Source: Tigriopus japonicus (Eukaryota; Arthropoda; Copepoda; Harpacticoida; Harpacticidae). Taken from it: a stretch of DNA of 64,000 nucleotides. Below are positions 11,801 through 63,471 of this stretch, piece by piece. Below the pieces are notes generated by a model. It did no database searches. It was not told the DNA's origin and was given only the letters and a program-made list of their open reading frames with translations. A program made the translations under genes and the position numbers. The stretch is from NCBI GenBank assembly GCA_010645155.1, contig CM021318.1, positions 7,730,910-7,794,909 of the forward strand, written 5' to 3'. Every line of letters starts with the position of its first letter. Within the stretch, counting starts at the first letter, position 1.

Positions 11801-14800
11801 CAAGCTTGTCTTTGGATGAAAATTCAGCCATCAACAAAGATGCTGAAGTCACTCCGGAAGAAACACTTCAAATCAATCAACCATTGGAACAACCAGAACA
11901 AGCAGAAGAAGAAAATCAAGCGGATGAAGAGAAACCGGAAGAATCAGTTGGTCTGGCTGAAAAGCTTCAAAACCTCGTGGAAGATGTAAAAGAAATTTTT
12001 GTTGGAGAAGATGCAAAGGAAAAAGAAGAGGAAGAGATAGATGGAAGCCTCTCAGAACAAGGAAAGAATCTCTCAGTGGTGGAATCAAGCAAAGTAATTC
12101 CAGAGGGATCATCTTCTGAACCTTTGAATGGCAAACTTGATGAATCACACTCTGATGATAAAAAGAGTATTGGAGAAGTTCCACAAACTACCACCAAGGA
12201 GCATCCAGAGGACGAAATTCATGCAGATGACGAGGTCTCAATTGAAGTGGAGAATGTCCAAGGTGACATCACCACTGATCAGTCTGCATTAAAAGATACC
12301 AAAAACGATGTATCTGAAACCGACGAAAATGTTGATGCTACAAAAGACAGCACAGATTTGCCCAATACAAGTATTGTGGAATCTCCTGAACAACTCCAGG
12401 ATAATATTTCCAAGGATTCTGAGCTCGAAACTAATGAAATTGAAGGAATTACAAAATCAACTGATTCGTTTGAACCAAATATTGAAGAAAAGGTTGCGGC
12501 AATCGTCGCATCCGATCTCCAAAGTTCTACAACAGATAGCAGCTCTACTCAAGATCCCGAGCCAAAATCCCCTGAAATTCCGGCGCATGGAGAGTCAGAC
12601 ATTGGGAAGGGTGCAAATCAGTCCGAGGATAGTTCGGAAAAAAGTCATTTTGTGGAAGAGCAAGAGGGAAATGTGGACAAATCTCAGGATTCTTCTAGTC
12701 GTCAAGATGATCAAGTTCAATCCGTGATGGAAGAGAAAAAGGCCGAGTCCCTCAGTGGAGAAACTGGAAAAGCCATTGCAGAATATGAGAAAACCGAAGC
12801 TACTGAATTGTTAAAATCAACCAATGAAACTGACAAGCAACTTGAATTTGAAAAGTCTCCGACAAAAGAATCGGCGACAGAAGATGAAGGAAAGGCACTC
12901 GAAAGCACTCCCCCGGATGAAGGAGTTCAAGGAGAAAAAGCAATTGGCAAAGTAGATCAAACCAAAGAGGAAATCGCAAATGTACCCAAAGAGAAAGATC
13001 AAGGTCAAGACGAACAAAACGAAAACACAGAAGATTCAAGAGAAGTTGAGGGTGATGTAATAAAGCAAACCACGGAGAGTGAAAATTTTCCCAAAGAAGG
13101 AGATGACATTGAAAAGTTGTCAACTAATAAGGAAGGTTCAGATTCCGAACAAATATCTCAAATCGAAGAACCATTGGGCCCAGATTCACTTAAGGTGGAA
13201 AGTGAATCACCACCCAAAGTTGAAGATCCACACTCTGATGTAGCCAAAGATCGTGAAGAAGTCGACGAAAAAGCACAAATGGACAAATCGCCAGAAAAGG
13301 ACGATGATTCTGCAAATGTAAAGATGGAGGAAATTAAGTCCAACGAAACATTTTCCAAAGATGACACCAATGATTCTGACTCAATTGCGACAGAAAAAGA
13401 AACTGATGTTCAGATTAATCTTGCAACTGAAGAAAATGCTCCCAAGGAGGTTTCAGAAGTTACGGATCAAGATAAATCAAGTACTTCCGAAGCCTTGCAA
13501 AGTACAGTTTCAAGTCATGAGGAGCCCTCTGAATCATTGTCGCAAAAGGATGATTCAAAAGAAGCAAAGGAGAGCGCCAAAACGGAGCTGGTAAATGAAG
13601 CCAATGACAAAAGGGAAATCACTGAGCCAACAGTTACTCAATCTGATATGAAAGAAAACGATTTGGATCAGCCTTCCCAATCAATTGGCGACACCGACAT
13701 TGCTCACCAAGATTCCAAGGAGAACGCAGATGAAAAAGGTCCTGAGGAGAGTATCCAGGCACAATCCCCAGAGTCTGAGCCTTCAAGGTCAGAACAGATT
13801 GCTTATCAAGACGCTGATATCAAACTACCGCAATCTGAGAAAGAAGATGACTTGCAAGCGTTGTCAAAAGATGACAAAAAATCTGATACGATGGACACTA
13901 CAAATGGAAATGCAAGCGGATCTGAGGCGCAAAAACAATCTCCTACTGATAAGACAGATCCCTCGCAAGGCACTGAGAACATTGATCTGCAACAAGAGCA
14001 AACACAAGGTCAGGAAAGCCATGATGAGCCATCTGTAGAACACAAGACAGAAATGTCCAATGCAGCTGAAGAAAACGTTTCGGCTGGCCAATCAGGATTC
14101 AAAGAGCCTGAAAGTCAATCTGACACTGAACTGGTGCGAGAAGTCAATCGGGACTCCAAGTCCAAAACAGAAGCATCTTCTAAATCAGAAAGTAACATTG
14201 TAGAGGCCCAACAAATGACTAAAGATGTAGACAAGGAGACTAAATCGTCCCTTGAGGATGGTAATAAGGGTACTGAGGGTGATGAGCCAGAAGCTAGTTC
14301 TGCTACTGAACAAATCGTTGAAGAGGAAGGTGATGTAGAAGAGTTGCAAAAATCATCCAAAGAGTCAAAGGGAGAAGAACAAGACGAAATGAAAGGATCA
14401 GAGCACGACGTTGGAGAAGATGTTATTCTAAAAAAATCTGAAACTCTCCAGCTTTCTGAAAATATTCCTGTTCAGCCTGACAGCATCACTGAAAAGCACA
14501 CCCTATCACCAGACACAAATGAAGGTCAAGATTTGACAAAGAGCGAGCAAACCACAGAAGATGATGACACTAAAACATCTGCCAATTCAGCAGAAGCCGA
14601 CAAAAGTGAAGAAAATGGTAAAGGAGATATCTCAGAAATAGAATCCAAATCTTCTCAAGAATCTTCTGAAATATCTCATGAAGTACAAGAAAAGCAAGAG
14701 CCTAAGGGTAAAAATGATGAACCAACTGAAGGCCGAAGTTCGTCTCCAGTATCTGATACAAAAGATGAAGGCGAAGTCCAACAAGTTCATAAAACGACTC

Positions 14801-17800
14801 CTGAAGTCATTGAAAAATCCGAAGACATAGCAGAAGTCACCTTGGATTCTGTTAATGAAAGCCATGTTGAATCAAGCAAATCAGAACCTCCTGTTTCCGT
14901 GGTTGATTCTGATTCCAAAGAGGTTAATGATTTAAAAGAAAAGGAGAAGATTGTCTCCAAAGAAGATGAAAATGGAGACAAACCAAAAGTTGTTGAGCAT
15001 GCCTCGCCCAAAGATGAAGCAAGTCAAATAGAAGCCGATTCAAACAATGAAAATTCCTTTAAGGACAAGAAAGATGCTTCAGTTGATGATACTACCACAA
15101 CTGACAAGGAAACCAATCTCTCCAATGCTTCTGCAAATGAAGATGCCAAAGACCAAGCCTCTGTTCAAACAGCAGAATCTGCTTCAGTAGATGACGGGCT
15201 GGAAGACAAAAAGCAAGAGAATTCCGATGACAAATCCTCTAAATCCTCTGAAGAAGTTAATGATAAACCCAACAATGAAGAGCCCAAACAGAGTGACAAA
15301 GATCAAAACATCGTCACCACAGATAATGCTGATAAAAAAGACGAAGAAGTATCAATAAGTGATCCCAAGGATCCTAAGCTAGAGGACATCCCTACTGAAA
15401 ATGATCAGAGTTCCAAGTCGGAAGAGATCTGCAAAACTCCCACTCATGACGACAAACAAAATACTTCGCAAAGGACAAATGAAGAAAGAATTCCTGTTGT
15501 AGAAGACCTCGCTACAAACATCGCTCTAAGCCAAACGGAATCAAAGAATGAAGAGGAAGACGTAAAAGATTCTAAATCAGATGATGAGCAAGAAATTGCA
15601 ACGACTCAAAAGGATCAAACCAATAATGAACAAAGCTTGACCGAGGCTGTTGAACCAGTAACTCAAGATTCTGAAGGTCTTTTGGGAACAATTAAGGAAA
15701 CCTTGGATGGTCTGAAAGAAATTATTACTGAGCCAGAACAGAAAGATGACGTCAACTTGAACGAGCAAATTAAGGATGGAAAGACTCAAAGTCAAACTGA
15801 TTGCTCTGTAAATATTCAAATTGATGAAGCATCACTTGATAAAACGGAATCAGATTCAATTGAAACGGATGCCGCAAAGGACGTTGAAGCACCACAAGAG
15901 TCATCAACAATTAACGTTGATGATGAGAAAGCTTCACACACTCCACCATCTACCCCAATAATTGATGATGCTTTGACGATTGGAGTTGAAGATGATTTAG
16001 ATGTCTCAAACACACCCAAGTCTCCGAGATCGCCAATGCCCGCAGATGAATTGGCCAAGTTCGTAGCTCAAGACATCACAGAAAAAGCAACTAAATTCGG
16101 AGTAGAAGTAGCCGAAGCCCTTTTGGTGGAACAAAAGTTAAAAACCGCAACGGAAGATCCCGCTTCCAAATTGGAAGAATCTTCTGCCGAAGACAAAGTC
16201 ACTTCACAAGAAGAACAACTCGTGGATAAGCCAGAAGTTACAGTAGATCAAGGCACCGAACTCGAAAAAGGTCAGAAGAACGTTCCAGATTCTGACCGAG
16301 TCGAAACTACCACTGATTCCACAATGGAAAGTTCTTTGAACCAAGAGAAGGACAAACATATTGATGACACAAAACAAGATGATGAGTCTGACAAGAAAAC
16401 AAAAGAGGCTGTTTCTGCTGCAGATTTGTCTCCAAAGGATCTCGGAAAGAATGGAGCTTCTCCTACAGAGTCTGATTCGGAGGACTCGGACTCAGGAAAG
16501 CCATTCAAAGGCACTGAAAAAGTGAAAGCCCTTCATGAAAAAGCCATCGATCCCGATGCATTGAACAAAACTGTAAATGAGGTAGAAGATCCCAAACTTG
16601 GTGAAAGTTCAGAGGGAGCATCTGAGCAAAGAAAATCAGACGGAGAATCCATCAAACAGGAAGAACATTCCTCTTTGGAAAGTTCAAAGCCAAAGAGCCC
16701 AATACCAGAAAAAGTTCCAGTGGAAGAGGATCCATGTGTGGAACAGATAGTTGGCAAGCAAGATGCCGCCATTGATCAAAGCTCTTTCTTGGGCAAAGCT
16801 GTTGGTTTAGTAGACAAAGTGGCATCAAAGCTTTCCGACAAAGTGCATGACTTGAAAGGTCGAGACAAAAAGGATGACAACGAATTGGCCGAATTGGAAG
16901 AGCAAATTGAAATCTCTGAAGAAGTGAAGTCTCCAAAAGCAGGAACTGTGGTTCAAGTTCAGTCACTTGACTCTGAAACCGAAGTAGAAGAAGACATCTG
17001 CATTGAACAGAAGCAGTTCCAGGCCACCGAAGCTCCAGATGACACCGTATTATTGCCTAAGGCTACCAAGATGGATCCAATGATGACTAGTTGTTACGGA
17101 AGTCTACCTTCTGAAGAAGAGGATTCCAAAGGTGAAGACGCCTCTGAAGTCGATTCCCAAAACCAACAGGAAGGGCAATCGAAGAACACTACTTTAAAAG
17201 AAGACAATTCACAACCATTAGGTGTAACTACTTCTTTGGAGCAAGGCGAAAATATTGATGGCCCGATTCAAGAGACGACTGTTGAAGGGTCAATGCAGAG
17301 TTGTGCGGAGGGTATTAAATCAACCGTATCAGCACTCTCAGATTCGCCCGATCAAGCCTTGGAGAAAGCTGATGACGCAATTGAGGAAACTCTTTACAAC
17401 TCTTGCATGACTGCAAAAGGAGCTTTGGAAAAGGTCTTTGAAGCTCTTCAAACTGATGAGGCCGTCAAGGACAAATCACCAGACACAGATGAAACTACTA
17501 TTAATACCGACAAAGATGGAACCACACCACCACCAGAAGACAATTTGCAAACAGGTCAACATAAAGATGAGCAAAACGCCAAAGGTCTTGGTGAGCATCA
17601 CGATTCTGGCGTTGAAATCACAATTGACTCTGAAAAAGCAAGCCCTGAAGATGACAAGTCCTCAAAAGATAAGGTGGTTGTCTCTGACGATGTGGTTCAA
17701 GATGGTCCTAATGAGGCGAAGGGCGAATCCAACGCGGTTGATGGAAATGAAGAACCACTCGACAAATCACTTTCCCAAGAAGTTCAACTCAATGAAACAC

Positions 17801-20800
17801 ACCAATCCTCATCAGAAGTTGTTCAAGAGTCTACAACATCTGGTCAGAACCAGCAAGAAGAATCGACCACAGAGACATCAGTCCCAAAGGACGAGCCAGT
17901 TCAAGCAAATAAAGAAACTCAAGTACTGGTGGAACAACCGGCGACTCAAAAACCAGAAGAAAGTTCTGTGCCAATGGACGCAGAAAAAGAGACGTCTTCG
18001 GTAGTAGATCATATGTCTAGCGCTATTGCAGTAGCTGGATCTGTTCTTTCATCTTTGGTGACAGGTGCTCAGCCTGACAACACTTCTAAGGATGAAGACA
18101 TGACCGAAAACCATGAGCCAAAATCCCCCGATGCTCAGCCAAATGAGGAGCCCAAAAAGCAAAGTGACTCTGCGGAAAATGAACGCTCACTTGACAGCAA
18201 AGACCATGGTAGTATGGAACAGGATATCGCTAATACATCTACCGCATCAGATGAACATAAAGGGTCAGAAGAAGCTGAGGGAGTGAATTCACCAACTTCA
18301 AAGGAAGAAGCTGAGGACTTGCAGAAAAAGGATCAAAAAGTTCCAATAACGGAAAGTTTAGCAAATGCTGGCCAAGCTCTTGCCTCTATCGTGACCTCTT
18401 TGGAACCCAAGGCAGATGACAAAACTGTGTCATTGGAAGCCGCTGACGATCCCAAGGTGGAATCTTCAATTGCCTCATCAGTAAAACAGCCTCAATCAGG
18501 TGAGGAAGATGAGGATCAAAATGAACGTGATTTGGATGGCGAAGATAAGCATCTTAAACTCAAAGGAGAAGAGTTCGAGACTAAGGGTGAAGCAACTTCA
18601 GCCCTTGAAAGCTTGACAAGAGCAAGTGAAGCTGTAACTTCCATTTTGGCATCGGCTCTTGACTTAGATTCAAAGACCAAGGTTGAAACGGATTCGTCAG
18701 AACAAGTTGGAGATGACATCAAGATACAGACTTCAATTTCCTACACAGAAGGGGTGGAGGCCAAAGTGGATTCTGTCTCTACGGACGATAAAAAAGCCTC
18801 TGAAGAAAAAAATGAAAGTAAATCTAACACACCTACTCCAGATGGGCAACTCGAAACCCGAGAAGATGGTTCAGATTCAAAGGATAAAGAGATATCACCC
18901 AAGGAAAGTTTGACACAAGATGGTGAGGCTAAAGACGATCCCCAACATGAAATTGATTCATCAGAGCACATTGATGATTCCAAAGTGCAAAAATCCAGCT
19001 CCACTATTGAAGTATCTGAGTCTCCAATTGAGTTGTCCTCTACAGCGGAAGAATCGGCTGACCAAGAACAAGAAGCTACCAAAGCTGACTCAAAAGATCA
19101 AGAAAAACAATCCATAACCAAAGAGGAAGATCTTGAAGCAAAGGAGGAAAAGGCAACTTTAGCTGATAGCATAACCACTGCTATGGCTGGTGCCACTGAG
19201 GCTTTATCTTCCATTCTACCTTCACTTGACTTTGTATCAAAAACCAATGATGCCGATGGTCTTGGCGTTGAAGTTGACACTGAATTGAAATCAGAACCCC
19301 AATCAGATGAGGAACATTCAACCAAAACGGAACCATCTACAAAGGAAGAAGTATCTAATGAACAAACTGAGTCTACAACAAATGGTGAAGTAGTAGACAC
19401 TCCTTCTTCTCCAAAAGACTCCAAAGAAAAAGCTGATGAAAAGCAGAGTATACAGATATCTGAGTCTGGATTTCCAACACGCAAAGAGGAGGAATCAAAA
19501 ATCAAACCTGAAAGTCATAAAGAGAAGGAAGGCATTGTGGGAGAGATTGTTGAGGGAGCTTCCCTGATAAGTGCCCAAGCTACAAAGGATTCCAGCTCCA
19601 TCTCTCCTACTTCAAATGTAGCTGAAAATGGTCAAGAGGAATTCGATAATGCACAGGTTTTTGAAGAATCTCAACAAAAAGCACTAAAGTCAGATCAAAG
19701 TGAGCATGAGGATCTTTCGAATGTGTTGGCAAAGACTGGAGAAGAATTGGATCCCAGTTCTCTAGAAGGTTCTGGAGAAAACGACCCTAATGAAAAAGAA
19801 GCTCAAGTCTTGGGAGAAAACACATCTGAGCATCCATGTACATCACACTTGGTCCAAGAAACTGGCAATCAAATGAAACAAGGCCATGAAGAAGTTATTG
19901 CGTCTTTAAAAGAAACAACAGCGAGTGCTGGAGAAGCAATTGCAAACATGATGACTAGTACCTTGTCTTTAGGAGGCGTCAATAAAGACTCAGAAAGCGA
20001 ACCCCATTCTTTAGAGGAAGACTCCTTGGTAAATGATGCTCCCATCAAGACAACTGAGATCAGCATTTCGTATGAAAGTGCCACTGATCCTACGATCTCG
20101 ACCATTCAGGAAGAGACACAAAAAGATATTGAGGACGCCAAAAAGGACGGTGCCATTGATGGTGATCAAGATGAAGGTAGCCAATACCATGTTGGGGAAT
20201 CTTGCCCAACCGGGGAATCAAAACCTTTGATGGAGGATAGCTCTGGTTCAACCATTCGTACAGAAAATGATACATCATCAAAACCAACCATTGAGGAGAA
20301 AGACGCCATCGCAATCCTTCAAGCAAAACCCACAGAGGAAAACGAAACTGAAAGGCCGTCCGACGCTGCTCAAGAAAAGGACTCGGCATCTATTGAAGAA
20401 AATCAAACAGGGGGTGGTCAAGAGAGTTCACAGGAAGAAGACAAGCCTAATGAATCAATTAGTCAAGACTCAAGAGATCATGAAGACACCGACAATGAGG
20501 TCGAGGGCAAGTCCAGTTTGTTGTCAATGATGGGAGAAAACATCTCGTCGATAATGAAAAGAACGATGTCAATCGAATCCAAGGATGAAGACGGCTCTGT
20601 GACCAAAGAGGCTGAGAAGCCACTTGAAGCAACAAAGGTTGAGGAAGAGTCTTCTTCAATTGCTTCAGCAATTGCTTCAGCAGGGACAAATATATCTTCT
20701 ATGATGACCGAAAGTATCTCAATTGACTCCAAGGAGGAGCTACAGCCTTCAAGTGCCGAGACCAAGGCTGAGGAAACAGAGCAAGAAAAAGTGGAAGGCA

Positions 20801-23800
20801 AGATTGCCGAAGATTTGCCTTCAAACATTGAAGCCAAGGACACAATAGACGAGAAGGTTGAAGAACATGTTGAGGGAGAATCTTCTTTGGCGTCTGCAAT
20901 TGCCACAGCTGGGGCAAATATATCATCCATGATGACCCAAAGTATCTCAATTGACTCCAAGGAGGACCAACAGTCTTCAAGTGCCGAGGTCAAGTTTGAA
21001 GGCTCAATGGAAGATAAGGTTAAAGAGGACTCTTTGACTTCAAACACCGAGATCAAGGCTGACGAACCAGCTCGAGAAAAGTCTGAAGAAGGCACTCCTT
21101 TACCTTCAAGCACGGAGGCTGAGGCTGAAGATTCAATGGAAGAAAAGATTGAAGAAAACTCTTCATTGGCGTCTACAATTGCTTCAGCAGGAGCCAATAT
21201 CACGTCCATGATGACCAAAAGTATCTCAATTGATTCTAAGGAGGAGCAACAGCCCTCAATTGCAAAGGTCAAAGTGGAAGAAGAAACCGTTGAAGAGACT
21301 GAACAGTCTTCTTTGGCGTCCACTATCGCCTCAGCAGGGGCATTTACATCATCCGTAATGACCAAAACCATTTCAGATGACTCCAAGGAGGAACATAAGG
21401 AGTCGATTGAGGAAAAATCTGAACAAACTTTTGCATCCACAGCTGGAGATATGTCTTTCATGACAACTGAAAGTGGTTCAGTTACTGAGTCAAAGAGCCA
21501 GAACATTTCAAACGATGGAACACCTTTTAAATTAGAGGAAGAACAGGCATCAACCAATGGATTTGAAACCGCATCAGCCGCAAAAGAAACAGTTGAGAGT
21601 CAAGGCTCACCTGATGAAGTTGTTAGCAACAAAAATCTATCTGACGGCCAGACTTCAGCAATTCAAGACCCTGAATCAAAGGAAGACAAAGTCCCATTTG
21701 GGGCTCATTGCAGTGAAACTGATTCGATTGTAACAAATGGAAAGCATCAAGAGGAAAGTCCAGTCCAAGATTGCATAAAGACCTCTCAAATATACTCCGA
21801 TACAAAAAACCCTCATTCAGATCAAGATGAGCGTTTGGTTGGAGAAGTGGAGAGTGAGGTTACGTCTGTTGAGTCCGATAATGTAATGCAATCCTCTCAA
21901 ATCACTTCCGAAAGCCAACAAACACCGTTTGAAAAAGACGATCTCAAAGAAACTCAAGAATCGCAAGGATCTCCAAAAATGTCAGCCCCGGAAACCTCTT
22001 CTACCAAAACAATGACCCATCAAGTTTCCAAAGATGGATCAACCAATGAAATTGTGGAAGAAACCACTCACACAACCTCAACCACTGAGATGGAAAGTTT
22101 GCATCAAAATGAGTTGAAATCCACTAGAGATGTACTTGGAGAAGTGAATGGCTCTCAATCATCCACTATCCAAGAATACTCAAAATCTGCAGGAACTAAG
22201 ACTGTGGTTATGCAAGATGTGGAGAATAATCCCAATTACAAGGATGGTCAGAGTACAAGTGAAACCATTTCCACGACCGCAACCCTTATTGGCGGGGATC
22301 AGGGTGAGGAGGATTCATCACAACCGTCGCAAATCGGCCAACCAAAAGGGAGCACCTCAGATGAAACAACCTCTGAACAGTATGACTCTTTCAAGTCCAA
22401 GGAAGTTTACACCTCAAGTGCTAACGGCTCTATTAGCCAAAAAATGGAGGCTTCAAGTTTGGTATCCGAGCAACCAAATGATCAGGGTCTATTTTCGGCT
22501 CTGAGTCGACTCATATCAGTGGATCCAGATCCAATTCCAGCTTCGCAAACAGACGATCTTGCCACCAATGAGCCATCCTTCTCACGTTCAACTTCCCTCA
22601 CAACCACCGCGATTTCTGGTCCGGAGACGTCCCAATCCCATTCATCCAGCATTGTTCGAGAAAGCAGTGATGGCGTAACCACCACGGAAATGGAGGAGCT
22701 TTGCTCTGAGGTGAAGACATACATCACCACAACCGTGACTAAAGTGATCACTTTGCCAGATGGTTCCAAGAAGGAGGTCATCAGCAATATCACCAAGACG
22801 GTATCCATTGAGGAGAATGTTCCACCAGATTCACCAAGTATCAAAAACCTATCACTTCACTCCAGTCCCCAACGTTTTCCACCCCTCGAAGACCAAGCCG
22901 AGGTCATAGACAGCGGCGATGAGCCATCCACGCCGGATTATGACAACTCTGATGAAGTCATCAATGCCGCTATTGAGACGGTCGTGGAATGCTCGAAAAA
23001 CTTAATTGAGCAATCCTCGGCTAAAGATGTTGCGAACAAGGAGGGCCTTACCAAAATAAACGTGGTGGTGGAACAAAAGGCCTTCAAAGAAAAGGTGGAA
23101 TCCCCGCTTAGCCATAAGAGCATCACAATTGAATCTTTGGCACAAGATTCGACTCCAGTTGGATCTCCAGTTAGTACTGCCCATTCCGAATCCGATCTCG
23201 GAGCCATTCCCAAAGTGCCGAAACCGTTTGACAGCCAAGCTCACAAAAAATCTCGAAGTGAGAGCAATGTTTCTACTTTCACAGAAAATCAAGAATCCTC
23301 GCGAACAATGTTCAAAACTAGATCCGCTGGAATTGAAGAGGAGACCGAAATGAGGACTTCGAAAATCCACGAGGTTCTCAAGAACGAAAAAGTGGTTACC
23401 GACAACGATACAAAGACCACTACCACAACGACAGTGTCCGAAGTCATCTTGGATCCATCAAGCTTGTCCACATCCAGCTTCCGGGATGTGCCCTCAACTG
23501 GAATCCAAGTCATCGATGAAAGTTTGGCTAGGGTAAAAGAACATCTAGCCAAAGATGACGAATGCTCAAGCCAGGAGATCTTAGAAACCATGGAAACAGA
23601 TGCCGAGGGAAATATCATCACCCGGACAATAACCACCACTATCACATCCACTTCCATAGAAGAATCGTCCGAAACGACTCAATCCGCTGCCCAGACCTTT
23701 GTCACTACAAATGAAGATGAAATTGAAAAGAAATTAGAATCATGGGGCAAGCCTTTGGGCCTTCCAAGTCCGATCCGGCCAAGTTCGCCCCGCGGACCGA

Positions 23801-24269
23801 GCAACCCAAACCCAGAGCCGAGCAAGTCCAAAGAGAGCCGCTCGAAAAGACAAGCCCGAAGTGACCCAGCTCCAGTTTACATGGACCTAGCCTATGTGCC
23901 TCATCATGGCAACGTTCTCTACTCGGACATTGAATTCTTTAAACGAGTCAGGGCCAGATATTATGTCTTCAGCGGAGTCGAACCCAGCCGTGAGGTGTTT
24001 GACGCCCTTCTGGCAGCCAAGAAAGAATGGGAAGACAAAGATATGGGTAAGAATTCAACAATCTAAAATGAAAAGAACACTTATTATATATTTTTACAGA
24101 GGTCACCATAATCCCAACGTATGATTCGGATACCCTTGGCTATTGGGTGGCCGCCAATGAAGAGGCTTTGGCCGAACTTCACATCGATTTGGCTCCATCG
24201 GCCAGCCGCTGCACTATCAACCTCCAAGACCATGAAACAAGTTGCGCCGCCTATCGGTTGGAGTTTTAA
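5810..24269 (+). CDS. futsch: Futsch/MAP1-family microtubule-associated protein, 5' end missing
   Basis: This is a giant neuronal microtubule-associated protein (MAP1A/MAP1B family; Futsch in flies) that in flies organises axonal and synaptic microtubules. The exons I read are 5810-5908, 5997-6169, 6252-6419, 6485-24046 and 24100-24269, with introns of 88, 82, 65 and 53 nt, all GT-AG and phase-consistent. The N-terminal part includes LLSWDVDTCHVDF, SSFTKHRHIIHGGYTF and the metallo-beta-lactamase-like core (YVFPGGQGDSALFGINGFN, DRLDAILITRL, LFPGSTPQHKILRGLEKLK); as in the family, zinc ligands are not apparent. A very long acidic Glu/Ser/Lys/Asp-rich middle follows. The end is the conserved light-chain C-terminus (VYMDLAYVPHHGN, FFKRVRARYYVFSG, EVTIIPTYDSDTLGYWV, stop at 24267-24269). 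About 6,056 residues are visible. A run of Ns interrupts the large exon, and the reading frame differs by one base across it, which I attribute to a mis-sized gap. The start codon and first exon(s) were not found. Confidence 0.93.
10301..10480 (+). repeat. futsch: Six tandem 30-bp units encoding DPGLKDSKEE
   Basis: Six consecutive in-frame 30-nt units encode the decapeptide DP(G/N/D)(L/F)(K/M)DS(K/E)(E/K)(E/D). The three central units are nearly identical in DNA, which points to recent unit duplication. The array lies just upstream of a second, different decapeptide array. Confidence 0.9.
10492..11120 (+). repeat. futsch: Tandem 30-bp array encoding (S/L)K(T/S)PKEEEAG, interrupted by Ns
   Basis: Units of 30 nt encode TPKEEEAGSK and variants. 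They are most regular from about 10630 to the gap and from 10970 to about 11090. The TP and SP steps followed by Lys resemble proline-directed phosphorylation sites, which are common in MAP1 proteins; that role is inferred. The near-identity of units probably explains why assembly failed here. Confidence 0.85.
10717..10969. other. Assembly gap of 253 Ns inside the futsch repeat array
   Basis: Before the gap, codons start at positions equal to 2 modulo 3; after it, at positions equal to 1 modulo 3. Two bases of a codon are left on each side, so an uninterrupted frame needs a gap length equal to 2 modulo 3, whereas 253 equals 1 modulo 3. The stated gap length is therefore wrong, or a frameshift is hidden. 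Repeat number in the real genome is unknown. Confidence 0.95.
18007..21390 (+). repeat. futsch: Futsch module B: about ten Ala/Ser/Met-rich repeats
   Basis: A hydrophobic module recurs about every 150-600 nt, near 18007, 18352, 18598, 19162, 19906, 20509, 20650, 20878, 21157 and 21307. The best conserved versions read SLASAIATAGANISSMMTQS followed by ISIDSKEE. Earlier copies are divergent, for example SLANAGQALASIVTSLE and SLTRASEAVTSILASALD. The last four copies are close relatives separated by acidic linkers, which suggests duplication from the 3' end of the block. No known domain was recognised. Confidence 0.7.
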
Positions 24270-53267: not shown

Positions 53268-56200
53268 TTAGGGAAACACAGATGTCAGCTGATGGTGTTC
53301 GAAGGCTCTCCTTCTCAAATGGTTAATCGTCGTGTGTGGCCACGGCTGATCCTCTCCTAGAAACCCAAATCAAAGTCAACGAATTAGCCCCGACCAGTCA
53401 TTTGCCGGATCATTTCTCCTCGACCCACCTTCCAAATCTTGGGAAGCGTTAATGATGTCCATATGTCCTCCACTGTTGGGGTGATCGCAGTTATGGTTCA
53501 TGGGCAAGTTCTGGCCAGCCCCAGTGAGGTTCGACCCCATCAAGTGGGAGTACTGGGAGGAATGTGGAGGAGACGGGGTCATGCCCTCTCCCGAGCATGA
53601 AGTGGTGGCAGGTGGGGGACTCAAAGTAGTCTGGGAATGAGGAGGGGCAACAAGGTGGTTATTAGTTGAGGGGGATGACGAAGGACTCAGATGGGACGGT
53701 GGAAAGCTCAGGTTGTGCATATTCCCTCCTGAACCGAACACGTCTTTCAAATTAGAACCGTCAAAGCATTGATAATAATACTGATAAACTCGAGTTTTAC
53801 CTCCGGACATGTGGTCCAGGCCCGAATCGCGTCTATGGAAGAATTGAGCGGCTTGGTGATGAGCTGACAAATTTTGATGATGGGCCAAATTGGTAGAGAG
53901 ACCGTAATTGCCGTTGGAGGATGGAGTGTGTTCGCCATTAGACGCATGCCCCGGATAAATCCCGCTGCCTCCACTGCCATGGGTGGGACTCAAATCCACG
54001 CCAGAATGATGTCCTCCATTTGGAACCATGTGAGCAGAGCTGGCCACCTGGGCAAAGTATGAGGAAGCCGTCTGGGCCAATTGAGACAGGGGGCTCGATG
54101 AGGATGCATTGGTAGACACGACCCCTCCTAGTGTGGTGCTATTGGAACTGCCCACCGTGGTTACTGAACCAAAGCCAGGGGAAGAACTGAATGATTGCAG
54201 CTGGCTGCTGAGACCTGCGTAAAAAATGACCGGTCAATATTGGAAGCATTTGTCCCACCCGTTGGTTGAAAGTAGCGTTGAAAGTGATAGAAGTTGCATT
54301 TCATGCTTAATTATCTAAATTCTTTCTAGGAAAAAAGTCCCAAAAGATATGAGTTCGAAAGGGACAGGAAAACGCAAGATCAAAAGGGGCGAAAATGATA
54401 TTAGAAATGATGATGATAATCCGTTTGATGTGAGCAAACGCGGGTGCGCCACCACCCTTGCGCCTGTTCTTCCATCAACATGGATATCCAGGGGTACTTG
54501 GGATATCCATCCATATAGGGGTAGATTGAATCAAGGTTCTACGAAAGACAGAGCACAAAGACCGACAAATCATTCACCTGAGTATCCGGGTGTTCCCCAA
54601 CTGTGAGAAAACGAACTCACGAGTGGCGGGAGGCTGTGGGAAGGAAGTAAAGGATTGGGGGAATGGAGGAGGGAGTTGGACTTGCGTTGCTTTTTCCACT
54701 TGGCTCGACGATTTTGGAACCACACCTGATGGTAGTATTATGGGAGGAGATATCCAAGACCAGAGGGAGACAGAGAAAGGCAGCACAAGAAAAGGAAGGA
54801 AAGAAAGGAGGAAAATGAATTAGTGAATACCATGAGTAGATTGGCAAGAATTGTTATCGATAGATCGGCAAGGGGCTTGATTAGGTAAGCTAGTTTGGTT
54901 TTAGTTGAAGTTTGAGCCACAAGGGCTTTGAGCACTCTACCAGATTTGCTTAGCATGGGTATCGTCACAGACGAGCCGGAGGCCATGCCAGACATGATAT
55001 CAGCGGGACTTTTCCTCTTCTTCTTCCATTTGGCACGGCGATTTTGAAACCAAACCTGAATTCGAGAGATCTTTTCACATCAAATTACGTCTTGTCATAG
55101 GAACTAACAAGATAACGAGGAATGAATTGTTCTCCCTACTTAATGGAAGACCATATTTTTTCTACCCTTAAAGCCACCTCGAAATGCGATGCCATGTGGC
55201 TATGAGAGTGAAACCTAGATTACCCAAGGGACCCCCAATGGACGAGGCTCCCGTATGATTATGAATGTAAAAATAGAGAACTCGAGAGAACTTCTCGATG
55301 GGAACGTGGTTGGTTGCCTTTGGTCCCAACGTACTACATCGGTTTGTCGGGTGGTACATGGTACGTATGGGTCGTGTTGCGCGTTCGCGGGGGATTAGGT
55401 AAATCTGCCTTCACATGTTGTTCACATACACGTGTATAATTCAGACGGCTCAAACATGAGGATCAGGACCAAGATATTTATGACTAAATGAGCTTCCGTC
55501 CTCGGTTGGAACGAATGGAACAGAAATGCCAAAGAAATTCCAACATTTTCCACGTTCCAAATGTCCCCGTCCAACAGTTTCGAAACAACAAAGAAAAGAC
55601 ATACCTCAGCACACTGGCAAAAGTACATACACACAAATAAAAAATGACCCGGAGTAAAAGCGCACGATCATCGAGATCCTGACTTAATTTGAAGGGTACC
55701 AATGCTCTTCCCGAAGAAAAGAGCTGCAACAATGGCTAGGAAAAGCAATGCTTTTCTGGAAAAGTCAACAAAACATGATTCTCCTCTTTGAATTCCAACC
55801 TATCCAAGGTGCACTTTTGCTCTTTCGCCGGATCCTTCTCTCTAGGGACCTCATCTCTCTTTCTCCCTTCGCTCCCCAGAATCCTCTGGCATACAAGAAA
55901 CACCACGTAGTAGTAGTCAACTAGTAGGGAACCACCATGTACTATGTTCCATTGTACTTACGCATGTACGTACGTTCGTTCCAGGAGAAGGAGAATGGAG
56001 TCGCTTTTTCCGAAGCGAGGAATGGGCAAAATCTGGGTTGGAACATGGAAACAACGGCAAGAGCGGGATCCCCCTCAATGGAGGAGAGTCGACGACTTAC
56101 TTACTCCCTCTCCCTCCCTCCCTCTTTCACAATCCCACCAAGACGAACGAGAGAAGTAAAGCAGAGCAAAGGCACACTGGAGACAGAAGAATGGGAGAAG

Positions 56201-59200
56201 GAAGGCATCTGCTCCTCGCTCGTTGCCTTCCAACTTGTGGCATGTGAAGATGGATGGATGTGAAGTTGTGTGCCGACAGAAAGGGATTTCCAAGTTCCCG
56301 CCACGAGAAAAAGAGAGACAGAGAATCAGTCACTCGACCACAGAGAACATAACCATACGTCAGGTCACTGCTTCGCAAAAGAGGAAACAAATAGACAAAT
56401 GATGTTATTCATTCTCCCCTCTACTCACCCAAACAGACCTATCAGCCAAGACATCACCCAACATGGAAGCTCATCAGTTTCATTTTCAGGACCAATGGGT
56501 ATTTTCACCGTGTGATATTTTCTAACAAACAAACTATTGGACACATTCCCAATCTGCCAAAGTTGGTTCAAAGAATTGCGGCTTCTCCAATTTAGACTTA
56601 GAAAATGCATCTTGAACATTGTGTGCATCATACGAATATGGGACTAACAGAGTCAGTTCCGATTTTAGTCTCAACGATGAACCTTCTCATTCAAGGGGTT
56701 TGAATTGAAGCGAGACTCCAAAACCAATCGGGGAGAATAAGACGGGGTCTTTTGTATATAATGGGAGAATTGCGTACACTGTTCGTCCATGTGGTTTGGG
56801 CCAACCCATCCTGGCTCTCTGGTCGAAAGTCGAAAGGATCCCCTAATCGGGAATGTGATGAGATTTTTATCCCTTGAAATGAGAGTGTCCAAAAACTGGC
56901 CGTTTAGACCATTTTGGGAGCCATTCTGGGGCCAGAAAACCAAAACCTTCGAGCCCACTTCATATGGACTGAACTAAAAGGGTGAGACAGAAAATTTAAA
57001 AGAAACCAAGAACCACATTTGATAACATGTATTTCCAAACTTGGACAGTTCCCTCAATCCAATGGATGAGCTTGCCGAGAAAAGTAAGCTTTCTTTTATA
57101 GGCTAATAAAGTTGTCTCGCCAGTGACATCCAAGGATTAGCGACTTGATCCATCCAGGACTTGTGGAGAAACCTTGAGGTTGTTCTCCTTCCCGGATATG
57201 TAATCCAAGGAATCCCCGAAGAAAGAGGTGCCCAAAAACGGAGAGCAGGAAAAGCAAATGGAGAAATGAGCATTGTCCATAATTATTATGGTTTCGATAT
57301 TGCCGTCTCATGTTGGTTCCCATTGTGTTCAATGCTCAACATCTGGGCGGGAACTTTAGCAATATCATTCCGAGGATTTCTTGCCTTTTCACGGTAATTT
57401 TATGGAGGCTTCTGGGTTTCAAGCCTTGGCGAAAAAGTAAGAAACCCATTAAAATGATTTATCCTCCCTTTGGATGGCGGTAGTCCCGCTATCCCCGCTC
57501 GTGGTTTTTCCTTCTCAACCAAGTCTCAACCATCCCTATTTGTGGGTTCATTTCCTAAAGTTCACCGCCAAGTTCGCGGTATTTCTCGGGTCTGGGGAAT
57601 AATAGACTCTTGGGGGGAAGAAAAAGCAGACGACAGAGAGGCACCAACCATCTAACTAACTAGCCCATGACAGTCTTTTTTAATAATTATGATCTCTACG
57701 ACAATGAGAGCTGAAAGTCTACTGTACAACATCCAACGCAATTGTGGTTGAAAAAAAGCGCCCTTATATGTTAAGTAATATCTCCTTCGGTTAGTTACTT
57801 TTCTTCAAAAACTTTGGTTTATCTTGCGAAAAAAATTGAGCATCTAAATTTTGCACACACCAGCAACCAAGAATCGAAAGTCAAGAATTTGACTAGAATC
57901 CCGACGAATTTGGTGAGCAACTGCACGATGGGTAAAGCTAAAGGGGGAAGTGAGGAAATCTCAGATAGAGCTCATGTCAGTCCCAAGGGACACAATAAAC
58001 GCCACAACAAACACCCTCAAAGACGAGAATATCAAAGACAAGATCGCGATTTCTAACACCCCATGGCATAAGAATTAAAGAAAAAAACAAAACGATACCA
58101 TTAGTACTGGTAGTGCTTCATGATTCAAACAAAGTCTAAGATTGGCCATAAAAACCTGAAAAATGTTCGAAGCGACACATCTAGCCTCCATAACGTAAAT
58201 CTGTGCTCTAGTAAATTACCCCAGAGACGACAAAGACCATCTGTGCGAGGGTTAACGGCCATTTAGGACCAAGGCGAGCACGTGGAACATATTGTGAGGA
58301 TAATCTGATATGAATATGAAATCAGCCCATCAACGACAAGCGACAAAGATCACAGCGCTCGTGAGGTCTTGGAGATCGAGTATTTCCCGATCTACTCTTC
58401 ACTAAAAACCTTTCTCATGTTATGACAAAAAATGCATGCGTCTATCTAGCAGTTAGAAAAGCTGTTTGTGGGTGTAGAGAGAACGAGGAGGTTGTTGTAC
58501 CAGAAACACAATGGAAGTGTTGCTCGGGATGGTGGTGGTAGTGACGATAGTTGGAAGTCCCTTCGAGGGTAAATGGAGAGAGCGTGTCGCGGAGACGTCT
58601 CATGGGATCCCATCCGTCAAGAGGTTCGGTGGTCCAGGTTGTTCGACTGAGCACTCACTCCTCGGGTTCCACTGTTTCAGTGTTCCAGGGAGGAGGAAGT
58701 CATTTTCGTCCTCGGCGATGGTTTCAAGCCAGCACAAGCTGTCGAGGATGGCTTTTGTGGTGTTGGGTGCGTACGAAAAATGACTCCATGGAGTTTAGGA
58801 CAGAATGAAACAGTTGAGAGGACGGCAAGGAAGAACAGAAAATATACATCAACTGCCCGGCCAACTACAAGAGGACTTAACATTTGCTTTTGCTCAAGGC
58901 AACAATTTTGCTCATTGAAAAGAAGCAAATTTGTCCCTTCCAATTTTGATGCAGTAAGAGAGCAAAAGTCTTGAGACTCCATATCCAGAATGTCTGTGGA
59001 ACTAAACTTGAATTTCCGTTGGCCGGGTGTCAGAAGAAGAAGAATGGGAAAGGGGATAGGAAAACTTTTGTCGAACCGAGGAGGAGGGATGAGAAAAGTA
59101 GGTACTACCAAAAAGAGAGCCTTTTGAGTGGAGATTGATTGTGCCTAGAATCTGGCTCAAAGATCCCCCCATCCTGAGGAGAATTGAAGAGACATGAACT

Positions 59201-62200
59201 CGTTTGTACCATCTTCCTCCAATGTACAGTACAGTTCCCACCTGAACAAAGATCAAAGGTGTCCGATAGAAATCGCACAATCAACGAGAAAAAGAAAGAG
59301 ACGAACCAGAAGCTTTTACAGCCTTGTTGACATTAGCAGGTAAAGCAGCGAATCAGCCAACTTTGCGCAAACCATGTGAGGAGGTGAAGATGACAAGTCA
59401 AAACAAAACAATGTCCCTGGTTCACATGGATGGTGGATACAGTCAAAGGCACACATTTCTGGGCTTCGGAACAGGGGGACTTTGAGCACACAAATAGAGA
59501 GGGCTGGCCAACCACGATGTAAATCCAACCGGAGCTTTACCTTCCTCCCATTCGAAGGGAAGAACTATGGATAACTCCATTCTGGGGACGTTCCATTCAG
59601 GATTTCATAGAATCCCTTATCAATGAAAATTATCAAGATTTCAGATTTAATTTATCTAGAGGAAGTTTGTCAGAGCCAGGTCTCCCATCAAACGATTTGT
59701 TTCAATGTTTGAACAGATAATTTTGTTTATTCTTTGACTACGCAAACCTCCAAACTAAGCAACATTTTTCTTAATCAAAATGGGTCTGCTTTGAGAGGAC
59801 TACTCAAGGGCTAGAGTTATCCCATTTGTCAGGGAAAACTTGGTGCTTGTGGTAGCAGTATTTGGAGGTATGGTATAAATATTTGTTTAGCACGTGGATG
59901 CCAAGAAGTTGCCGCCATATTGATCGCCATCAACCACAGGGAAGCTCAGAGTTTCTCTCTCCTCGAGCCTTTCAGTGTCGAACTCTTGGTTGGTTCGGAG
60001 CTCAAGATCGCCAGTTAAAATGAATGCCATCTGTCCAAAGAGGCGCGCAACTGTCTCATTCTTTCTTAATTAGTGAATCATGGTCCCCGCACACTCCATA
60101 AATCAAAGGGGATGCGACAAATTTGAAATCCCTTTGTTTGAACGGAGCTCAATGGGGTGAGCACCGAGTCCTATTATTAAGTGTCTCTTTTAAAAGCGTA
60201 CTCGCACGTGAGCAATCTAATTGAGCTTGGCATACGCCACAAACACATATCAATCAAATCAATTTTGTGTGCATCTAAAATAATCACAAATTAACAGACT
60301 AAGAGAATTTAACTTCTAACCCGAAACAGATACAAAGAAAGGTTGTATTGTGAGATCTTACTTTTAAAGGTTAACGTTCATGAATGAACCCAATCCTAAT
60401 TTTAAAAAGGGAGGAACTTCGATCAAAATGAGTCGGCACCTCTCTTTTAAGAGGCCAGCGAAAAGGAAACTACTGTCAATTTAGGTAACTCCGCAATGAA
60501 CAACAAACGAGTCATGGGCAGACCTCATTGTGTACATACACAGGAGTGTGGAAATAGTCATTTCACATCCTGCTTAAGGATTGTCAACTGTCATCGTGTC
60601 ATCAACCACTTTTCTAGACAATATGGAGGGCACGTGTCGGATGATCGATGAATCAAAAATACCGATCGTCACGGTTCTCCGCTGCACATTCATAGGAGTT
60701 GAAATTTATTTAATAAGATTTATATTCAGTTCCGCCTTTTTGATTTTATTATGCCGTCAAATCAGGCGAGGACTTGAAACATGTTCTATTTATCATGAAT
60801 TGATTTCGATGTAGCAAGATTTCGGTATATTGCTCACCTTTGATTACCATGTGCCCCAATAAAACCGGCTTAATCCAAATTCAACCATCGGGAACTAATT
60901 AGCACATCCAATCCGAGCATGTGTGATCTTTGGATAAAGCGAAATCAATACGGCGACAAAGAGTTCTTGGGTCATTGATACCCTTTGAAAGTCCGAGACC
61001 GAGTTTTGGTCACCCAGACAATATGAACAAACGCAATCAAAAGTGCCAGAGTTCTCAAGTGCACTAGAACATTTTACCAGGATTCGATGGCACTAACACG
61101 TAATGGTTTTCGAGAGACAACGAGGGCTTGAATCAATACAACAAGTGTGGGAAAATGAGGGATGTTGAGATGTGGGTGGCCAGAAATTGGGGGAGGGAAC
61201 GGCCAAGGCAAAGAGCCAAGGCGGGAAACTACTCGTACGTAGTATTTCACGTGAAGTCAATTGAGAATGTATGTGATTCGAGGAGAAGAACCCGTCCTTG
61301 GCTCGTCAAGGAATCGAGATGGACTTGAGCTTTTTCGTGTCATTCAACCATTATTGTTTTCACAAGGGAATTGAATTGAACTTTCGCACCTGAGTATCAA
61401 AAGCATCTTGAACAAGCCGGACGGACCTCGAGCGAGAGCCCAAAGTCGGCAAAAACATGGGAGTATTTTTATGAGGGCCTTTCTTCTTGCCCATCCATAT
61501 ATCCCATTCCAGAAAATGGACAAAAAGTCAATATCGCACCGAGGATAGAAACGATGTCTTTTCAGACAAACACGTACCTCTAAAGTTCGGGGTGAAGACG
61601 GTCAAAAAGCACGCAATGTAGTTTGCAGACTATTCTAGCTCGAAGAGAACGAGCATATTGGAGATATCATTGACCAAGTCGGGTAATGGTGTGTCAGAGA
61701 TAAGAATGCAAATTGGTGGAGATCAACCCGGAATGAATTTGCTTCGACGAGCAATAAAAGTCACACCTTAGCTCAACCTCCTGCCGGTATTTTTACTCAC
61801 TCCCGTCATTCAAGCTAAGAATAACATGCCTGGATGGATGGAAGAACCATCGGACACCAAATCCGACACTCCTCAAGAAAATCTACTCAATGCAAAGTGT
61901 GAAATTCTTGGTTCGAGGATCTTTCTACCGTAAATGGGATTGGGTTTTCTCCGGCTCCTTCTGCCTCCAAAATTCCATCTCCCCTTCTTTTCTTCCTTCG
62001 ATTTGTTGAAATCGCCTTTCGGCACTTTGGTCTTCTCACGAACGAGTCAATATCAAACAATCGAAAATCTCCCGATGAATTTTTATGGCTCAATTTCAAG
62101 TGGAGATCGTCGGGGTGGCAAAAGGCCATCATGTAAAACCCACACCCAAACGAAAAACCAATCGCATTTCGAGGCGGCTTTCAGACTTTTCTAAAGTTTC

Positions 62201-63471
62201 TTTGTTTCGATCTAAAGAGCAATTTAGACAGACAAAGGACACAACGCCAATGACAAGAAACAGGCACGTTTTGTGTCATACGTTATGAATTCTAAGGTCG
62301 GGCATCTTGAAACTTTTTTCTTTAAGAACTATTGAGATTTCGCACTGAAATGAATTGCAAAATGACATCAACCTTGGGTCTTGAAAAAATTTATACGAAA
62401 GCGAAGAAAAATGGCCACTTTAACGGCAGGCAAACAATCGCCGGAAAAGTAGTTATTCGAAAGGGAAAATTTTGCAACTAATGAAATTAATTTTTGTGGC
62501 TATCAAAGTGTTCACATATTTTTCCAATTTTGAGTTCGTCTTCAAATTGCTGTCGGATTTAAACTATACCTTTAACACAAACGGTTTTTTTTTTTGTTTT
62601 GAATTGATCAGTGTAAAACTTATAGATTTACGGGGATTGGCGAGGTGTCAAGCTTAAAATGACGAAATTTGTTGACCCTACCTGAACTCGAGATTCGGTG
62701 AGACCAATTTTCAGGGCCAATTCCTCCCGCATGAAAATGTCCGGATAGTGTGTTTTGGCAAAGCTTTGTTCCAACTGGTTCAATTGATGGGGATCGAACC
62801 TGGTCCGATGACGCTTCTGTTTCCCATCCTTATCCGAATTTGGACTGATGGTGCCTAGGAAGAAGAGCAGAGAGTCAAGTTGGATCATTAGTATTCCATC
62901 ATTGTGTAAGGGTGGGACGTTAATTGGTGTAAGCACTACCTGGAGGGGGCACCAAAAGGCCTCCGTGTGGAGGCAAGTGATGCAAATGGTGGTGTTGAGA
63001 GCCATGATTAGGGTCATGGTGAGCGTTGGTTAGACAAAGATTGTTAGCATGAATCCCATCCCGTAAGGGCTTTTTCAAATCAATCTGTGAGTGACCGTGG
63101 AGCCGGAGATCATCTGAATGTTAGGAGAAGAAAGAGAGAAAGAGTAGATGAAGTCAGAATGTGTCCTTTCCCTTCTCTAACCCTATAACCGACTAATCCT
63201 CTGCTATCCCCAGGACTTCCTCAAAGGTGGTTATTTCTAAATTGATTGAATTAAGGCCAAATTGGGTCTAACTAATGAGTGTCCCAGAGGAACGACGGTG
63301 GTTCTTCCTCACCCTTCTGTCACGATATTCGCGCACGCACCCACCCCAAAAAGGCTGATTTGTGGCCTTACCTCCATTGCCATGATGGTCAGGTTGATTG
63401 CTCGTTTGGACCTCAGAGTTGGGAGTCAGGGAATTCGGATTACCCTGCTGTTGGCCATTCGTCAGCATCAT
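53268..63471 (-). CDS. otp: Orthopedia (Otp) homeodomain transcription factor
   Basis: Otp should be a nuclear regulator; its homologues act in neurosecretory and ventral nerve cord neurons. Minus-strand exons are 63471-63372 (ATG, in-frame TGA 30 nt upstream), 63113-62940, 62854-62682, then one of two alternative exons (55055-54941 or 54725-54578), 54214-53429 and 53356-53268. All junctions are GT-AG and in phase, giving 489 or 478 residues. The homeodomain starts [20 protein letters not shown], continues [20 protein letters not shown] and LTESRVQ, and is completed by [12 protein letters not shown] from the alternative exon (Gln50). Next come Ser/Gly/His-rich sequence and, in the last exon, an OAR-like motif [17 protein letters not shown] similar to the SLRRKALEH tail of vertebrate Otp. 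The intron at residue 46/47 is 7.6 kb. A 57-nt in-frame stretch at 53744-53800 may be a further intron. Confidence 0.92.
53356..53428 (-). other. otp: Last otp intron; optional read-through C-terminus
   Basis: The 72-nt intron (53428-53357) runs from GAAG|GTGGGT to TTCTAG|GAG. If retained, the frame continues for 17 codons (ending DWSGLIR) to a stop at 53376-53378 and the OAR-type tail is lost. Splicing gives the OAR-bearing end. The phase fit and OAR similarity favour splicing. Confidence 0.75.
53744..53800 (-). other. otp: Possible 57-nt in-frame intron inside an otp exon
   Basis: The coding strand reads GGAG|GTAAAACTC at one end, TTCTAAT near the other and TTGAAAG before the resumption. 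The segment is 57 nt, a multiple of three and without stop codons. It encodes [19 protein letters not shown], unlike the Ser/Gly/His/Asn-rich surroundings. Introns of 53-88 nt are normal in this window. It may be constitutively spliced or an optional exitron. Confidence 0.45.
54578..54725 (-). other. otp: otp alternative helix-3 exon, 3' copy
   Basis: This exon begins [20 protein letters not shown] and continues through [10 protein letters not shown], which resembles the LLPSHGLPPF segment of fly Otp, so it is probably the ancestral copy. It is 148 nt long, enters in phase 0 after CATCAG and ends TCAG|GTGAAT in phase 1, which fits the exon starting at 54214. Confidence 0.8.
54941..55055 (-). 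other. otp: otp alternative helix-3 exon, 5' copy
   Basis: This exon begins [20 protein letters not shown] and ends in a short tail [10 protein letters not shown]. It is 115 nt long, enters in phase 0 after ATTCAG and ends TCTG|GTAGAG in phase 1, exactly as the copy 215 nt downstream. It can splice to the same flanking exons. Its first 36 nt differ from the other copy only at synonymous positions. Confidence 0.8.
55056..62681. other. Large otp intron
   Basis: The 7.6-kb intron between homeodomain residues 46 and 47. I found no further exon, RNA gene or bounded transposon; its many short open frames on both strands look like chance. It is a candidate location for otp regulatory elements. Confidence 0.6.

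Follow-up and report, generated by a model that had tools for sequence, protein, structure and literature searches.

The question raised by this locus is whether a single homeobox gene can carry, in tandem, two alternative exons for the third helix of its homeodomain, and whether splicing chooses between them. The window, that is, the whole stretch of 64,000 nucleotides analysed here, contains on its minus strand (53268-63471) a gene modelled with seven exons, counting the two copies in question, exon A and exon B. Among the matches listed in a protein search, the best for the encoded protein is a Tigriopus californicus protein (P0001), labelled by its source 'homeobox protein aristaless-like isoform X2'. 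The homeodomain is of the Otp type (KQKRHRTRF...) and, after the Tigriopus protein, most of the named matches listed are Otp proteins. Judged by these similarities, the gene is orthopedia (otp) of a Tigriopus harpacticoid copepod, and its parts are the following.

63372-63471, minus strand: coding part of otp exon 1 (MMLTNGQQQ...), matching T. californicus P0001
62940-63113, minus strand: otp exon 2, matching P0001
62682-62854, minus strand: otp exon 3, homeodomain up to Q46 (...TESRVQ), 5' splice site CAG/GTAGGG
55056-62681, minus strand: intron at homeodomain position 46/47, 7626 nt
54941-55055, minus strand: exon A, taken as the derived type, 115 nt, entered in phase 0 and left in phase 1, 5' splice site CTG/GTAGAG; A-type homologues P0006, P0030, P0055, P0121, P0124 and P0125
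54726-54940, minus strand: intron between A and B, 215 nt
54578-54725, minus strand: exon B, usual Otp type, 148 nt, entered in phase 0 and left in phase 1, 5' splice site CAG/GTGAAT; B-type homologues P0001, P0019, P0068, P0126 and P0127
53429-54214, minus strand: exon 5, common to both predicted isoforms
53268-53356, minus strand: last exon, with an OAR-like end and the stop codon

Exons A and B are each directly preceded by AG and directly followed by GT. The original prediction had placed two exons 215 nt apart, with the same start after the 46/47 intron and with the same phases at either end, and all of this is borne out by the gene model; the junctions it named (62682-55055 and 62682-54725) are correct, exon 3 ending with TESRVQ at 62682. 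Within exon 5 lies a 72-nt intron (53800-53729, minus strand) that is in-frame and free of stops; its 24 residues are missing from P0001 and are read through in P0002, so that it could be optionally retained. An 11-residue stretch of the last exon resembles the C-terminal OAR motif, although no OAR domain is among the precomputed Pfam domains of P0001, which ends in the same way. A PDB search with the B homeodomain returned 32 homeodomain sequences, none of them named Otp, and a scan of P0126, P0006 and the neighbouring homeobox exon against NCBIfam, a library built for bacteria and archaea, assigned no family.

With homeodomain residues numbered from W48, both exons open with codons for the same 12 residues (47-58). 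The 36-nt core that encodes them differs between A and B at six sites, all of them third positions and all silent, as had been claimed. The probability that six random substitutions would all be silent is 3e-6 under a uniform model and 2.6e-5 with a transition bias of 4, and the all-silent outcome occurred in 0 of 200,000 simulation runs. Since the helix-3 residues 47-58 are the same in the two forms of this species, their DNA recognition should also be the same. Residue 59 is K in exon A and Q in exon B, while R60, K61 and S62 are again common to both, with six silent base differences that include AGT versus TCC for the serine. The tails (QRKSNSLL versus KRKSPADI) therefore do not diverge completely after the core, as had been supposed, and of the expected change at residues 59-60 only that at residue 59 holds, residue 60 being R in both. 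Further on, the tail of exon B aligns with the usual Otp tail and that of exon A does not; the Otp-specific motif behind the homeodomain is present in B and absent from A. In the accessible part of a zebrafish study, 12 conserved residues are marked downstream of the Otp homeodomain (PMC1635040), and the neighbourhood of these residues is kept in exon B and missing from exon A. Because the usual tail and the conserved neighbourhood are found in B only, B is taken as ancestral and A as the derived copy. The parts that the choice would change are residue 59, the flank and the presence of the Otp motif, and this is likely to affect either partners or the output at sites common to both forms.

Translation of the possible joins gives, with A alone or with B alone, a frame that stays open until the last exon ends. 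Joining A to B shifts the frame and leads to a stop at the 74th codon past the A/B junction, inside exon 5, and skipping both exons leads to one at the 18th codon past Q46, in the same exon. The frameshift and the stop in the A+B product had been foreseen correctly, while the stop itself had been placed too early, within about 50 codons. Going by these translations, transcripts with both exons or with neither should be destroyed by nonsense-mediated decay. The frame supports the claim that only one of the two can be used productively, and it is from the frame that we infer exclusivity in this species; adjacent, homologous and phase-matched, A and B would be tandem mutually exclusive exons within a homeobox. 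Steric exclusion by intron length is not supported as a cause. The 215-nt intron between A and B is long enough to be spliced, given inferred introns of 72 and 85 nt in the same gene, so nothing steric forbids A+B and a steric block of A-to-B splicing is unlikely.

In the animal assembly that was searched (194,852,151 bases in 158 contigs), the 516-bp stretch spanning A and B has one full match. The sole other match, about 50 bases 86% identical with the beginning of exon A (G000:C10:4155396-4155445), is the helix-3 stretch of another homeobox gene. A pattern of AG followed by [VI]WFQNRR, which sees those exons that begin with this motif directly after the AG, has 25 matches genome-wide and none for the reversed control; exons A and B of otp, 330 bp apart, are the only close pair among them, and no two other matches lie 25 kb or less from each other. 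Within the window there is no third copy: it holds three helix-3 stretches in all, one of which belongs to a neighbouring homeobox gene. This second gene of the PRD class (27513-27370 and around 26244, both minus strand) looks to us like homeobrain, in which case part of the ancient HRO cluster (homeobrain/rx/otp) presumably has been kept. Elsewhere in the window (10705-24066, plus strand) a single open frame encodes 4453 residues, among them very many S, E, D and K; unknown bases form a run close to its beginning, and its end we take to resemble the light-chain end of MAP1/Futsch proteins.

Both exon types recur in the proteins of two other copepods. Three protein searches scored the candidates that share most words with the query (7971, 7944 and 7924), and the best 120 of each were sorted by the residues that follow KWKK, with K[RK]K[SG]P for the A type, QRK for the B type and RK for the usual tail. 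The 235 proteins so listed comprise 6 of A type, 5 of B type, 219 with the usual RK tail and 5 with no usable stretch or from another homeobox, but as the A and B classes are defined by motif their counts are no independent test, and it is the bearers that matter. Among the matches listed, every A- or B-type protein with an organism name comes from a copepod (5/5: P0006, P0126, P0124, P0127 and P0001).

The salmon louse Lepeophtheirus salmonis has one protein of A type (P0006) and one of B type (P0126). These share 84 identical residues before KQKRHRTRF and 59 from its start, or 143 up to KWKK, then differ in one piece (KRKSPARSETQAD in P0006, QRKSNSMLHSP...GSYA in P0126), and are identical again over the last 232 residues. 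In all, 375 identical residues surround the swapped piece; the first residues of the two models also differ. At the level of these protein models, this is the arrangement predicted from the window. The two louse proteins lie on contigs of 59.8 and 44.0 Mb, probably from two assemblies, and because the contigs differ in size it is by their identity that they are assigned to one gene. P0006 may be a gene model without support: its N-terminus is different, and it goes under the names 'unnamed protein product' and 'unc-4'. In Eurytemora carolleeae the two types are named as isoforms of one protein, X2 (P0124) being A-type and X3 (P0127) B-type; the contigs of both are 431,465 bp long and 101 residues are shared up to KWKK. 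A further pair, P0030 (A) and P0068 (B), has 145 of 147 residues in common up to KWKK, with chimeras being possible. The B tail of the protein found for T. californicus, P0001 (X2), is that of the gene in the window, a point in favour of the preferred reading. That this protein is of B type counts against use of exon A; an A form may be hidden in its 90% cluster or may be unannotated. The usual tail is present in Daphnia (P0009) and in the shrimp Palaemon (P0177), though with the best 120 of each search the absence of A-type exons from other crustaceans is weakly tested. Absence or breakage of the second copy in relatives had been named as evidence against the prediction, and the opposite was found, with both types in proteins of L. 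salmonis and E. carolleeae.

Tigriopus and Lepeophtheirus belong to the Podoplea and Eurytemora to the Gymnoplea. Since A and B types occur in both groups, the duplication most likely preceded the Podoplea/Gymnoplea split, and from the distribution of the two types it is probably old. The recognition helix has not been constant throughout. Homeodomain residue 52 is R in all five B-type proteins, M instead of R in the A-type protein P0055, and P0121 and P0125 begin at an M at the same place within helix 3; these sequences suggest a possible change in helix 3 of exon A in some copepods. The expectation that the DNA-contact residues are fixed is thus correct for residues 47-58 in this species and fails for residue 52 of P0055.

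The two types also differ in their C-terminal ends. By a simple pattern, an OAR-like end is found in one of the six A-type proteins (louse P0006) and in four of the five B-type proteins; the A-type proteins without it are P0030, P0055, P0121, P0124 and P0125. P0030 may be a fragment. The one B-type protein without such an end is P0127 (E. carolleeae X3), the model of which may be incomplete; it contains several repeats of the final part of the B tail (IPSFSHSWSPSGY units), which may represent further exon duplication or a faulty model. E. carolleeae X2 has a C-terminus of its own without an OAR-like end, so that there is no simple swap of A and B in that species. P0055, P0121 and P0125 end in MFHN, AFHN and VFHN and have the motif SSGYGSEGSSP in common, SSGYGSE occurs also in P0030, and GSSPECP is common to E. 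carolleeae X2, P0055 and P0125. On the strength of these motifs, P0030, P0055, P0121 and P0125 appear calanoid-like. The start of P0121 and P0125 inside helix 3 could mean that they stem from genomic contigs in which A is one long last exon.

The splice signals of the two exons are of unequal quality. On an approximate general matrix, the 5' splice site of exon A has the lowest score of the seven and that of exon B ranks fourth. In the 20 bases that precede the last three of the intron, there are 9 pyrimidines upstream of exon A, the lowest number, and 14 upstream of exon B. Exon B moreover follows an AG-free zone of 148 nt that contains a long pyrimidine tract; counting the two strands of the window, the 7756 AG-to-AG intervals include 5 that are this long, that of exon B among them. 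For human exons, AG-free zones of at least 100 nt are linked to more frequent alternative splicing in the accessible portion of one study (PMC1431707). Candidate branch-point motifs lie 55-125 nt from the 5' splice site of exon A. Competing RNA pairing among the flanking introns was not found in the six region pairs compared, at least 6 of 60 shuffles being as low in each.

The reading that we consider quite likely is that A and B arose long ago by tandem duplication of the otp exon that begins at residue 47 and are used as alternatives, B by default, so that two Otp proteins are made with the same recognition helix and different sequence behind it. Having the better splice sites and the usual tail, exon B would be the default exon; exon A would be included when its weak splice sites receive help; and wrong products, with both exons or neither, would be removed by loss of frame together with nonsense-mediated decay. 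B-Otp would keep the Otp-specific motif behind the homeodomain. A-Otp would bind the same sites without that motif, in E. carolleeae also without the OAR-like end, and would probably compete with or retune B-Otp rather than choose new targets.

The main rival is that exon A serves here mostly as an alternative last exon, in which read-through of its weak 5' splice site, as far as a stop at 54740-54738, yields a short Otp that lacks both exon 5 and the OAR-like end; E. carolleeae X2 points to such a form in calanoids. The frame of exon A indeed continues open through the A-B intron (54940-54738, minus strand) for about 67 codons and closes just before B; its 5' splice site is the lowest of the seven by the approximate general matrix, and five A-type proteins (P0030, P0055, P0121, P0124 and P0125) have no OAR-like end. 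However, 8% of shuffles show an open frame of this kind, neither AATAAA nor ATTAAA occurs in the A-B intron, and a six-frame search of the window found none of the C-terminal motifs seen in the Eurytemora-like A proteins. The terminal GT of exon A stands in exactly the phase that exon 5 needs, and louse P0006 rejoins the common downstream sequence. An alternative end is therefore judged unlikely in this species, and splicing of exon A to exon 5 is preferred.

Two other explanations fare worse. That exon A is a dead or dying leftover of the duplication, no longer spliced in this species, would agree with its weak 3' and 5' splice sites (by the same approximate matrix) and with the B-type protein of T. 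californicus, but a decaying copy is hard to reconcile with an exon that has no stop, intact AG/GT sites and phases, a core in which 6 of 6 differences are silent, and A-type counterparts in species of both Podoplea and Gymnoplea; we hold it to be very improbable. Hardly credible is an origin of the two types in separate otp genes or in a duplication within the assembly. The different contig sizes of the louse proteins would fit it, yet in the window a gap of 215 nt separates the two exons, which are flanked by shared ones, the single full match of the 516-bp stretch rules it out there, and a simple repeat of the assembly would show neither the silent differences nor those in the tails. Separate genes are unlikely in the louse, too, given the 375 residues that P0006 and P0126 share outside the differing piece, and the names of E. 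carolleeae X2 and X3 mark them as isoforms. Alternative use of A and B stands as the preferred reading; the observation itself is real, the duplication probably old and the arrangement probably functional.

Tandem exclusive exons as such are already known. According to the accessible part of one account (PMC9013439), they occur in CadN, Mhc, 14-3-3zeta, srp, Dscam1 and the FOX and tropomyosin families, some of them transcription factor genes, and there too adjacent homologous exons are present of which one is used. Unlike those cases, the otp copy lies inside a homeobox, with residues 47-58 identical and the tail varying. Exons 4a and 4b of OGDH likewise are two exons with a long pyrimidine tract before the second; from what is available of that study, their exclusivity was demonstrated and relies on branch points close to the 5' splice site (PMC7969005), while those of otp are only guessed. 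The resemblance is suggestive only, and the short introns of otp argue against a steric block. Splicing of Lhx9 also alters the homeodomain at helix 3 together with the C-terminus that follows, but Lhx9a/b, as opposed to Lhx9c, lose helix 3 in the excerpted description (PMC9310833), whereas both copepod Otp forms keep it. Otp itself is alternatively spliced in Drosophila and zebrafish, as is proposed here for copepods: the accessible sections report nine known transcript forms of Drosophila otp in two classes with different first exons (PMC7678101), and zebrafish otp1 forms with a 39-nt difference in the first exon (PMC1635040). No homeodomain variant of either gene was found in these sections of the two papers. 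In line with the original remark that the arrangement was not known for otp, no report of duplicated homeobox exons in this gene was found in the literature seen, mainly open-access and in part as excerpts. What would be new is the unusual site within the otp homeobox.

Neurosecretory and brain neurons are under the control of Otp, a conserved regulator. A splicing choice inside its homeobox would give copepods two regulators from one gene, with the same predicted targets, and would provide a natural test of the sequence just behind the homeodomain in which both the recognition helix and the gene are held constant. A difference between copepod lineages in the wiring of exon A is possible; should the contrast of Eurytemora with the podopleans hold up, it would also illustrate how evolution can turn an alternative C-terminus into an internal swap, or the reverse. 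As a tentative view, for which the odds fall somewhat below even, copepods may have kept since their early radiation one Otp gene with two outputs on the same DNA sites, one with the usual tail and the other a competitor without the motif. Podopleans would make this competitor by an internal swap, and calanoids through an alternative C-terminus that lacks OAR. A splicing switch would then set the sign or strength of a neuroendocrine regulator and leave its targets unchanged.
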